Positions 1,042-47,194 of a stretch of DNA of 51,853 bases are shown here, in pieces (positions within the stretch are counted from its first letter, which is position 1; every line of letters begins with the position of its first letter). This stretch comes from Trueperaceae bacterium (GTDB lineage Bacteria > Deinococcota > Deinococci > Deinococcales > Trueperaceae), in NCBI GenBank assembly GCA_011389865.1, contig JAABTL010000004.1:1-51853 (forward strand). The letters run 5' to 3'. The notes under the pieces are model-generated. The model was not told where the DNA came from. It did not search any database and saw only the letters and a list, made by a program, of their open reading frames with translations. Made by a program: the position numbers and the translations under genes.

Positions 1042-1045
<4 letters not shown>

Positions 1046-1953
1046 GCTTCCTCCGCGGGGGTGGGGGTCGCGTCGTCCTCGGCGGACTCGCCGGGCGTCG
1101 CGGCGGTTTCGCTGGGGGCCTCTGCCGTGGGGGTGGCTTCGCTCGAGGCGACGCCACTGGCGTCGGCCACGGCCGCCTGGATCGCCTGCTCCGAGGCGGT
1201 CGTCGGCAGGGGTCGCAGGACCCGCTCGGTCGTGGGCGCGGGCTCGGGGGGCGCCTCGACCGGCTCATCGCCGCCGCCGCGGACCTCGATGATCACGTCG
1301 GCCAGCGTCGCGGTGACGAGTTGGATCGAGCGGATGGCGTCGTCGTTGCCGGGGATGATGAAGTCGAGGACGTCCGGATCGCTGTCGGTGTCGGCCAGCG
1401 CGACGGCGGGGACGCCGAGCTTGTTGGCCTCCTTGACCGCGATCGCCTCCTTGGTCGGGTCGATGATGAACAGGGCGTCGGGCAGGCGGGTCATGTCGCG
1501 GATGCCGCCCAGGTAGCGCTGCAGGCGCTGCAGCTCCTTGCCCATGTCGATCTGCTCCTTCTTGGTGTAGCGCAGGATCGACTCGTCCTCGAACATCGAC
1601 TCGAGCTCGCGCAGCCGGTCGACGCGCGTGCGGATGGTCTTGAAGTTGGTCAGCAGGCCGCCGAGCCAGCGCTCGTTGATGAACGGCATGCCGCAGCGCT
1701 TCGCCTCGGCGGCGAGGATCTCCTGCGCCTGCTTCTTGGTGCCGACGAACAGGATCGTGCCGCCGCGGCCGGCGAGGTCGCGCAGGTAGGTCAGCGCCTT
1801 CTCCGACTCCACCAGCGTCTTCTGCAGGTCGATGATGAAGATGCCGTTGCGCTCCGCGAAGATGTAGCGCTTCATCTTCGGGTTCCAGCGCTTGGTCTCG
1901 TGACCGAAGTGGACGCCGGCTTCGAGCAGTTGCTTCATGCCGAGGTAGGACAT
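1042..1953 (-). CDS. rpsB: 30S ribosomal protein S2 with long acidic C-terminal tail
   Basis: Structural protein of the small subunit. The N-terminus [19 protein letters not shown] and the core motifs [20 protein letters not shown] and PDALFIIDP are typical of S2. The folded domain ends near residue 227; the remaining ~75 residues are low-complexity Ala/Glu/Pro/Thr/Ser and not part of the usual ~230-260 residue protein. ATG at 1953 is preceded by GGAGG (about 1958-1962). First gene of rpsB-tsf-pyrH; its leader holds two perfect hairpins, which could serve regulation. Confidence 0.96.
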
Positions 1954-2032
1954 TCGTTCCTCCGTGTCGGGACGTTGAGGTTGGATTCAGAGGTCGCGCA
2001 CCGGTGGTGCCATCCCTCTCGGTCTTCACACT

Positions 2033-2064
2033 GCAGTTTTCGCGCGCCGACGCGCGAAAACTGC
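2033..2064 (-). promoter_or_regulatory. Perfect hairpin 1 in the rpsB leader
   Basis: Arms of 14 bp (gcagttttcgcgcg, 2033-2046, with its exact complement 2051-2064) around a ccga loop, about 80 nt upstream of rpsB. No T-run follows on the minus strand, so a simple terminator is not the best reading. It could be a leader structure for S2 feedback control or a copy of a dispersed palindromic element. Confidence 0.6.
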
Positions 2065-2067
2065 TTG

Positions 2068-2098
2068 GTGTTCGTGATGGCGGAGCCATCACGAACAC
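2068..2098 (-). promoter_or_regulatory. Perfect hairpin 2 in the rpsB leader
   Basis: A second 14-bp perfect stem (2068-2081 with 2085-2098) with a 3-nt loop (gga), lying 3 nt from hairpin 1. Two consecutive perfect hairpins of equal arm length between a candidate promoter and rpsB suggest a designed leader or inserted paired palindromes. The 3-nt loop matches those of the hairpins found inside yraN. Confidence 0.6.
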
Positions 2099-2134
2099 AC
2101 GCGGACATCCCGATACCGCGTGGCAAACCTCCCG

Positions 2135-2143
2135 AATCTAGCA
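2135..2143 (-). promoter_or_regulatory. Candidate extended -10 promoter of rpsB-tsf-pyrH
   Basis: The minus strand reads TGCTAGATT, an extended -10 (TGn plus TANNNT), without a recognisable -35. Transcription would begin near 2128 and give a ~175-nt leader carrying both hairpins. The same TGC-TANNNT layout occurs before the TPR gene and before the yqjD-like gene. Confidence 0.4.
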
Positions 2144-46739: not shown

Positions 46740-47194
46740 AGGGACCCGTGCGCCCGACGAAGTCGGGCGCCAAGGAGCGTGCGACAGAGTCGCGAGCACC
46801 CGTGCAGTCGTCGCCGACGGCGACGACTGCCAAGGAGCGTGCGACAGAGTCGCACGCTCCCAAGCATTGGGCCGAGGCGTTGGCGCGCGCGGCGCTCGAG
46901 CGCCGCGGCTGGACGACGGTGGCGGCCAACGCCCGCGTTCCCGGGGGCGAACTCGACCTGGTGATGCACGACGGCCGAGCGCTGGTCTTCGTCGAGGTGC
47001 GCCAGCGGCGCGGCGAGGCACAGGGCGGCGCGGCCGAGAGCCTCGTGGCGCGCAAGCGCGCGCGCGTCCGGCGCGCCGCCGCGCTGTGGCTCGCGCGCCA
47101 TGGCGGCGACGACCGCCCCATCCGCTTCGACGCCGTCCTGGTGGACGGCGATCGCCGCGCGCCGCGCCTCCGACTCGTGCGCGACGCCTTCTAG
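46736..47194 (+). CDS. yraN: YraN-family (UPF0102) protein with a palindromic insert at its N-terminus
   Basis: 152 residues. The conserved endonuclease-like domain starts near residue 42: HWAEALARAALERRGWTTVA, PGGELDLVMHDGRALVFVEV, then RQRRGEAQGGAAESLVARKR. The motif E-L-D-L...V-E-V-R is the catalytic-type core of this family. The first ~41 residues come from a run of hairpins and a 25-bp direct repeat read in frame (AKERATES twice). GTG 46736 overlaps the rsfS stop (GTGA). Family function is not well established. Confidence 0.87.
   Translation: MKGPVRPTKSGAKERATESRAPVQSSPTATTAKERATESHAPKHWAEALARAALERRGWTTVAANARVPGGELDLVMHDGRALVFVEVRQRRGEAQGGAAESLVARKRARVRRAAALWLARHGGDDRPIRFDAVLVDGDRRAPRLRLVRDAF
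46750..46860 (+). repeat. Palindromic hairpin array inside yraN
   Basis: Four consecutive hairpins, each with a 3-nt loop: 46750-46770 (9-bp stem), 46774-46800 (imperfect), 46804-46830 (12-bp perfect) and 46834-46860 (12-bp perfect). A 25-bp exact direct repeat occurs at 46769-46793 and 46829-46853. All is read in frame as coding sequence. Confidence 0.9.

Follow-up and report, generated by a model that had tools for sequence, protein, structure and literature searches.

A likely dispersed twin-hairpin repeat in the S2-type leader of rpsB in a genus of Deinococcota

The leader of rpsB in a Trueperaceae-like genome contains two adjacent perfect hairpins. We consider it likely that this pair is a copy of a dispersed, genus-restricted repeat, which lies in the linker of an rpsB-tsf pseudoknot leader that probably mediates autoregulation by S2. 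The best reading of the data is a REP-like twin-hairpin repeat in an S2-type leader, where it is tolerated. The DNA analyzed here (the window, 51,853 nucleotides) is contig 44 of 67 in a 3.05-Mb draft genome (G000), which is Trueperaceae-like (Deinococcota). Among named genomes its rpsB is most similar to that of Trueperaceae, followed by Thermaceae.

Results

Two adjacent perfect hairpins upstream of rpsB

The window opens with tsf and rpsB, both on the minus strand; the gene order rpsB-tsf was confirmed by matches to PF00318 and PF00889 in that order. Table 1 lists the features of this region and of the yraN region.

Table 1. Positions of the features in the window and the evidence for each of them.
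Feature	Position	Strand	Evidence
rpsB (ribosomal protein S2)	1042..1953	-	PF00318, E 6.9e-94
Shine-Dalgarno GGAGG of rpsB	1959..1963	-	sequence; GGAGG conserved in 31 leaders
Pseudoknot 3' strand ACGTCCCGA, just upstream of Shine-Dalgarno	1967..1975	-	277/279 cells paired; helix 2, 99.2% over 29 distinct rows
Whole element, CGT-hairpin-CAA-hairpin-AGTG	2029..2101	-	covariance models: R1, 60.8 bits; leave-out R2, 37.5 bits, E 3.4e-6
Second hairpin (GCAGTT...AACTGC ends, 14 bp, 4-nt loop)	2033..2064	-	exact stem; end pattern
Spacer CAA separating the two hairpins	2065..2067	-	CAA common at twin sites
First hairpin (GTGTTC...GAACAC, 14 bp, triloop)	2068..2098	-	exact stem; orthologues in G001, G002
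Leader stem P1, 3' strand CCGCGTG	2098..2104	-	covariation alignment and sequence
Pseudoknot 5' strand TCGGGATGT, in P1 loop	2105..2113	-	pairing over leaders, covariation
Leader stem P1, 5' strand CACGCGG	2116..2122	-	helix 1, 84.2% cells paired; 6/7 pairs with two-sided changes
Probable extended -10 promoter box TGCTAGATT	2135..2143	-	most of the 31 leaders have a similar box at this position, by eye
yraN array hairpin 1 (9 bp), CGT before, CAA after	46750..46770	+	sequence, orthologue comparison
yraN array hairpin 2 (imperfect), then CGT	46774..46800	+	sequence, orthologue comparison
yraN array hairpin 3 (12 bp), then CAA	46804..46830	+	exact stem, spacer survey
yraN array hairpin 4 (12 bp), then CAA	46834..46860	+	exact stem, spacer survey

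An earlier note on this DNA, which was made from the sequence alone, had described two adjacent perfect 14-bp stems with loops of 4 and 3 nt in the rpsB leader. This description is exact: the arms are 2033-2046/2051-2064 and 2068-2081/2085-2098, both stems are perfect, the hairpins are 3 nt apart, and the pair lies 80-145 bases upstream of the start codon of rpsB. Folded as DNA, the 66 bases of the pair give -36.9 kcal/mol (z = -11.4), and none of 200 shuffles was equally stable. The 191-nt leader, folded as RNA, has a z of -5.1, and both stems dominate the fold of the region. A long MFE stem around the leader was rejected, since transcription probably starts downstream of its 5' strand.

The promoter proposed in the same note has the form of an extended -10 box, and inspection by eye finds a TAnnnT box at the equivalent position in most of the 31 leaders of relatives, but a generic promoter scan called none. 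Further upstream, a perfect GC-rich hairpin of 15 bp without a U run (2192-2225) lies between the rpsB promoter and the preceding gene and possibly marks the 3' end of the upstream transcript.

The strong GC-rich stems raise the question of a transcription terminator or attenuator, and a scanner marks one site on the plus strand as terminator-like. The flagged tail is, however, on the antisense strand, neither stem is followed by a U run on the rpsB strand, and a terminator would stand between the promoter and an essential gene; this explanation is very improbable. Chance palindromes of high-GC DNA would account for hairpins as such, since isolated hairpins are common (289 observed in the sample of G000 against 162-195 in five simulations). 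Adjacent pairs behave differently. With a stem of at least 9 bp and a gap of at most 4 nt, 846,376 bases of G000 (851,853 minus 5,477 counted twice in the overlap of L168 and L169) contain five, whereas five Markov-3 simulations gave 1, 0, 0, 0 and 0. Earlier hairpin simulations were first-order (three and one replicates), and the five third-order ones were used for the adjacent-pair counts. Three of the five strict pairs are those at rpsB, at yraN and in L165, which has the same architecture. The conserved ends, the spacers and the orthologues also contradict chance, which we regard as practically out of the question.

A family of copies linked by grammar rather than by sequence

The note had pointed out that hairpins at rpsB and yraN have gcagt/actgc ends in common, and this likeness is real. 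The full form, GCAGTT...AACTGC, occurs in 19, 14, 16 and 8 hairpins of G000, G001, G002 and G004, compared with 3, 2, 2 and 3 for reversed-pattern controls; the fifth genome of the genus, G003, has two against one control. The neighbors of these hairpins are often further hairpins, 2-4 bases away. The grammar of the element is CGT-hairpin-CAA-hairpin-CGT, with a second hairpin that often has the form GCAGTT...AACTGC. At 41 distinct twin sites from four genomes the spacer CAA was found in 18 (7 of 12 in G000), and CGT often stands before the first hairpin or after the second, in an orientation that was picked to favor CAA and CGT. The twin-site and inner-arm sets consist mostly of sites chosen for holding GCAGTT, so that this end is no evidence there. 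The stems at the twin sites have 9-20 bp, a G-C outer pair and mostly triloops. Between copies the outer six bases are common, as set by the search pattern, and the inner arms are on average 0.43 identical. When G000 was searched directly with the sequence of the rpsB pair, the pair matched itself alone, and most matches to the yraN stretch were of low complexity; such searches fail because the copies have too little stem sequence in common. Dispersed palindromes are usually known by their sequence, while the copies described here are linked by grammar and pairing, so that sequence searches miss them.

We therefore used covariance models. At E 0.01 or better, model R1 gave at least 8, 6, 5 and 3 matches in G000, G001, G002 and G004, numbers that are lower bounds because only some candidates were scored at first pass. 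Among the candidates scored, such matches occurred in four genomes, all from this genus, and in none of the 107 others among the 111 from the order. The full grammar is present in two R1 matches from loci not used for training, one on contig C6 of G001 and one on C222 of the same genome, after a stop codon; the latter element later joined the training set of R2. This leave-out model was built from 13 loci, with rpsB and yraN excluded. Its only strong match in the window is the rpsB pair (Table 1; the next match has E 0.49), and R2 also recovers the pair in G001 and G002. Weak R1 or R2 matches in L125, L129, L269, L270 and L271 were judged by eye to be non-elements. The earlier note had suggested a dispersed element family, against which it would have counted the lack of compensatory changes and of other paired copies. 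The suggestion is supported: the rpsB pair is recovered when the model is built from other loci, further paired copies are present in the genome, and the stems have undergone compensatory changes.

Outside the genus, the GCAGTT pattern shows no enrichment in the other genera as a whole, where AT-rich genomes yield chance matches. R1 found no match in genus g12; twin forms with other spacers occur there at the 3' ends of pstB and fumC (L262, L263; genes named from flanking sequence), from which it follows that some copies are old and kept. These forms could have a function instead of being merely tolerated. The Y1/RAYT transposase family PF01797, the one family searched for, was absent from all five draft genomes of the genus and present in 5 of 14 control genomes.

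Three further arrangements of hairpins were seen. Two nearly identical hairpins in direct contact, outside the CGT/CAA grammar, lie on contig C22 of G000 (L153:12192-12249). On contig C11 of the same genome (L161:3376-3453) three consecutive hairpins stand at the 3' end of a gene, the product of which ends in NDPCPCGSGKKYKHCHGRV; their spacers are off the grammar. Four GCAGTT hairpins, 63-72 bases apart, form a local array at the end of contig C209 of G001 (L225:1541-1770).

The yraN array

The third yraN hairpin of the note (46804-46830) and its neighbor at 46834-46860 are exact, and they belong to an array (46750-46863) that, read in frame, is an N-terminal extension of YraN. The number of hairpins depends on the species: G001 has two, G000 has four, and in G002 the series is longer and has partly decayed. 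The encoded peptide varies with the array. Since the repeats and the peptide vary and the stems still pair, the pairing has been kept and the protein sequence has not, with a repeat number that is variable. The yraN genes of other genera are too divergent for this comparison (5 of 39 genomes matched, two of them weakly).

The yraN and rpsB hairpins have the same spacers (CGT, CAA) and architecture and occur in the same clade, but the leave-out model R2 does not recover the yraN array in the window, so that it is the spacers, the arrayed form and the common clade that link the two. The arrays were also missing from the whole-genome matches of R1, although they are in its training set; a direct scan of the window gave 46.4 bits. 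From these features the yraN hairpins are likely to belong to the family of the rpsB element.

Genomic placement of the copies

Flanking genes were called at 17 sites and ten of the proteins could be named; PstB, which the automatic gene caller missed, was placed by hand. Copies lie across or beyond the 3' ends of GlcD-like, PstB, FumC, Icd, PntB and MarR-like genes, and in G001 one is also found at the 3' end of a gene for an ABC-transporter ATPase. They occur in both orientations relative to the gene. Two copies are in-frame N-terminal extensions, of YraN and of an IolE-like protein, and a third is inserted in frame within a SoxA-like oxidoreductase, whose homologues align up to residue ~462 and resume at ~510. 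The insert is missing in four homologues examined at this place, and in others the alignment has gaps at the same point. It is encoded by arrayed elements (GSSRSELLGAGQSPAH-like repeats; L208:1533-1680 on contig C5 of G000) with three units in G000 and G002 and two in G004. The placement of the element is thus REP-like, mostly 3' of genes, with the rpsB leader and the in-frame copies as exceptions.

Evolution of the stems

Next we compared 16 orthologous hairpins of equal length from two or three genomes. In this hand-made set, in which genome pairs are not independent, 505 pair comparisons comprised 431 unchanged pairs and 66 in which both sides had changed but pairing was kept; the remainder were 3 G.U (in gene sense), 4 A.C and 1 broken pair. 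The set excludes orthologues of unequal length, among them rpsB hairpin 2 of G002, the fumC and icd hairpins and the glcD hairpins of G001. At rpsB itself, the orthologues of hairpin 1 in G001 and G002 have 3-4 pairs changed on both sides and none broken. Furthermore, some loops are exact reverse complements between species (TCC/GGA in rpsB hairpin 1, AGA/TCT in yraN), a change that would fit inversion of the hairpin.

Selection on RNA could maintain such a family if hairpins at the 3' ends of mRNAs, or here at the 5' end, protect the message or set its processing, as has been proposed for REPs; the compensation in the stems would then be classic RNA covariation. Many copies do overlap or directly follow stop codons, those at pstB and fumC persist into genus g12 with rewritten stems, and hairpin 2 of rpsB in G001 contains one G.U in the mRNA sense. 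On the other hand, wobble-type intermediates are rare (7 of 74 changed comparisons) and show no bias to the gene strand (3 G.U versus 4 A.C), and copies lie in both gene orientations and inside reading frames. We consider RNA selection a possible but rather doubtful explanation of the family. The scarcity of wobble intermediates and the absence of strand bias, small as the numbers are, lean towards a process at the DNA level behind the perfect stems, with RNA selection and DNA strand switching both possible as causes.

A conserved pseudoknot around the twin hairpins

A different structure is conserved in the leader. In all 31 leaders the loop of stem P1 (usually AGCGGGATGTC) pairs with CAACRTCCCGC, which immediately precedes the Shine-Dalgarno GGAGG. 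The cells counted in Table 1 are those of nine pairs in each of the 31 leaders, and a paired cell is a standard pair. On 29 distinct rows, four pairs of the pseudoknot helix have changes on both sides. P1 and the pseudoknot together are paired in 92.7% of the cells compared with 32-50% for slid controls. The clade of the window has its own compensated change at the first pseudoknot pair, from G-C to T-A, and the leaders of G003 and G004 contain one A.C mismatch each. The set consists of 30 loci, obtained from rpsB matches in 54 of 61 genomes, plus the locus of G001, which was found via the hairpin pattern; 24 of the 54 rpsB-bearing genomes gave no locus and their leaders are outside the set. 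In three rpsB leaders from Thermaceae (L049, L050, L051), examined by eye, the pseudoknot has the same position and its strands differ yet match each other.

The Rfam model t44 (the rpsB motif, RF00127) matched neither the window leader, at E values up to 10, nor the leaders of 16 relatives, at E values up to 2. Rfam as a whole, at gathering and permissive cut-offs, gave just chance miRNA and snoRNA matches and one tRNA. We therefore call the leader S2-type and not a proven member of the motif; judged from its separate conserved pseudoknot, the leader around the twin pair looks like an S2 leader.

The twin pair occurs in 3 of the 31 leaders, those of G000, G001 and G002, where it occupies the linker between P1 and the 3' strand of the pseudoknot; full-length R1 matches were likewise confined to three leaders. 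It was sought in the other 28 loci and was found in none, including G003 and G004 from the same genus. A clean empty site was not found either, because the linkers of G003 and G004 are too different to reveal a precise insertion or a target duplication. The 3' strand of P1 ends on the very base with which the first hairpin of the element begins. Over the 31 leaders the linker measures 36-192 nt, and 122-127 nt in the three carriers of the pair. This variable length, together with the restriction of the pair to three leaders, indicates that the linker is a tolerant place.

As one of two possibilities, the earlier note had read the pair as an S2-responsive leader. For the pair itself this reading fails: a pair absent from 28 of 31 leaders cannot be a conserved S2 signal, and the S2-type feature is the pseudoknot. 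The absence of the pair from most leaders and the conserved pseudoknot around it place the element inside an S2-type leader. The further idea that an element was recruited there is right about the location, but recruitment in the sense of a gain of function is unproven. A narrower version would make the twin hairpins part of the S2 operator of this clade, as an enlarged P2/P3 read by S2 or S1. The pair is indeed in the leader and, provided that the promoter was called correctly, transcribed, and its stems covary; in addition, the published rpsB motif has two stems of variable length (Meyer 2009, PMC2704228, accessible text). We nevertheless consider this version unlikely, since the pair is missing from 28 of 31 leaders, the same type of element stands at the ends of pstB, fumC, glcD, icd and pntB and inside coding frames, and the rpsB pair is recovered by a model trained elsewhere (R2).

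Discussion

The reading that we prefer, a dispersed repeat tolerated in an S2-type leader, suggests the following course of events. The element would have been added in the lineage of G000, G001 and G002. Once transcribed, it should fold into two local hairpins without engaging the pseudoknot, and for this reason it could be tolerated, merely adding length to a linker of already variable length. Excess S2 would bind the pseudoknot, stabilize the helix between loop and linker beside the Shine-Dalgarno sequence and block initiation. The stems may be kept perfect by hairpin-templated strand switching at the DNA level or by selection on the RNA. The rpsB copy is present in 3 of 31 leaders and the SoxA-like insert is absent from homologues; no transposition was seen.

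A more speculative idea, to which we give a minor chance, is that of a bacterial double-hairpin element of which only the ends and spacers (CGT, CAA, GCAGTT) are recognized, while the stems are rewritten and kept complementary by strand switching on extruded hairpins or by a hairpin-acting enzyme. Such an element would move without a known transposase, would expand as in-frame arrays at gene junctions, and would have entered the leader of an essential ribosomal protein.

Whatever keeps the stems perfect, the orthologous copies are a natural series in which RNA selection can be compared with DNA strand switching as the keeper of perfect palindromes. The rpsB copy indicates that the pseudoknot of an S2-type leader can carry a structured insert of 66 bases, and the rpsB leader extends the S2-type pseudoknot to Deinococcota with clear covariation. 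The open-access PMC literature, to the extent of its accessible text and with subscription literature outside the scope, gave no description that we recognized of the twin-hairpin repeat or of a Deinococcota rpsB leader.

Several known systems resemble parts of this arrangement. In E. coli, uS2 represses rpsB-tsf (PMC10931766, accessible text). According to the accessible text of Meyer 2009 (PMC2704228), P2 and P3 of the rpsB motif may be absent and its junction pairs with the 3' extension. The leader described here is similar in the pairing of its P1 loop with a 3' extension that precedes the start of rpsB, in a motif in which P2/P3 can be missing; it differs in the linker of 36-192 nt before the 3' strand, in the loop sequence and in the absence of an Rfam match. 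The string 'Deinococc' does not occur in the main text of that paper as far as it is accessible.

The repeat itself is like the REP/BIME sequences of the GTAG and CGTC super-families, as portrayed in the accessible text of Di Nocera 2013 (PMC3733652), in that small dispersed palindromes are often paired, sometimes arrayed, located mostly at the 3' ends of genes and in some cases in frame within them. According to the same text, CGTC REPs have no dedicated transposase, an 8-9 bp stem with A-T as the first two pairs, a loop of 4-5 and a CCA tail. In contrast, the stems of the twin hairpins have 9-20 bp, a G-C outer pair and mostly triloops, which is outside the CGTC definition, and their inner-arm identity is 0.43. 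Their spacers are CAA/CGT, the partners are separated by 2-4 nt, and a search for a Y1 transposase was negative. Unlike GTAG REPs, they have CGT/CAA-like flanks in place of an unpaired GTAG end, and the RAYT (Y1) transposase was not found in the five draft genomes of the genus. In comparison with REPs in general there is no consensus stem, the common bases being the outer six set by the search pattern. The accessible main text of PMC3733652 lacks the string 'Deinococc'; a passage names REP-like families of D. radiodurans without conserved end motifs. The Rickettsia palindromic elements covered in this text are alike in being palindromic repeats in frame inside coding genes; they are sequence families with consensus stems, whereas the stems of the present repeat are hypervariable and its units consist of twin hairpins. 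The small noncoding repeats of Deinococcus radiodurans, which the accessible text of PMC1978522 describes as mosaic, with 295 copies of at least nine types, are, on the basis of that description, similar in being dispersed and in coming from the same phylum.

The arrangement in two hairpins has a counterpart outside bacteria. Fungal mitochondria reportedly contain dispersed double-hairpin elements that consist of two adjacent hairpins (Paquin 2000, a work cited in PMC4478555); the present elements differ in being bacterial and in having a spacer grammar and conserved outer ends. Taken together, the twin pair belongs with the dispersed palindromic repeats and is set in a leader that extends the known S2-type motif.
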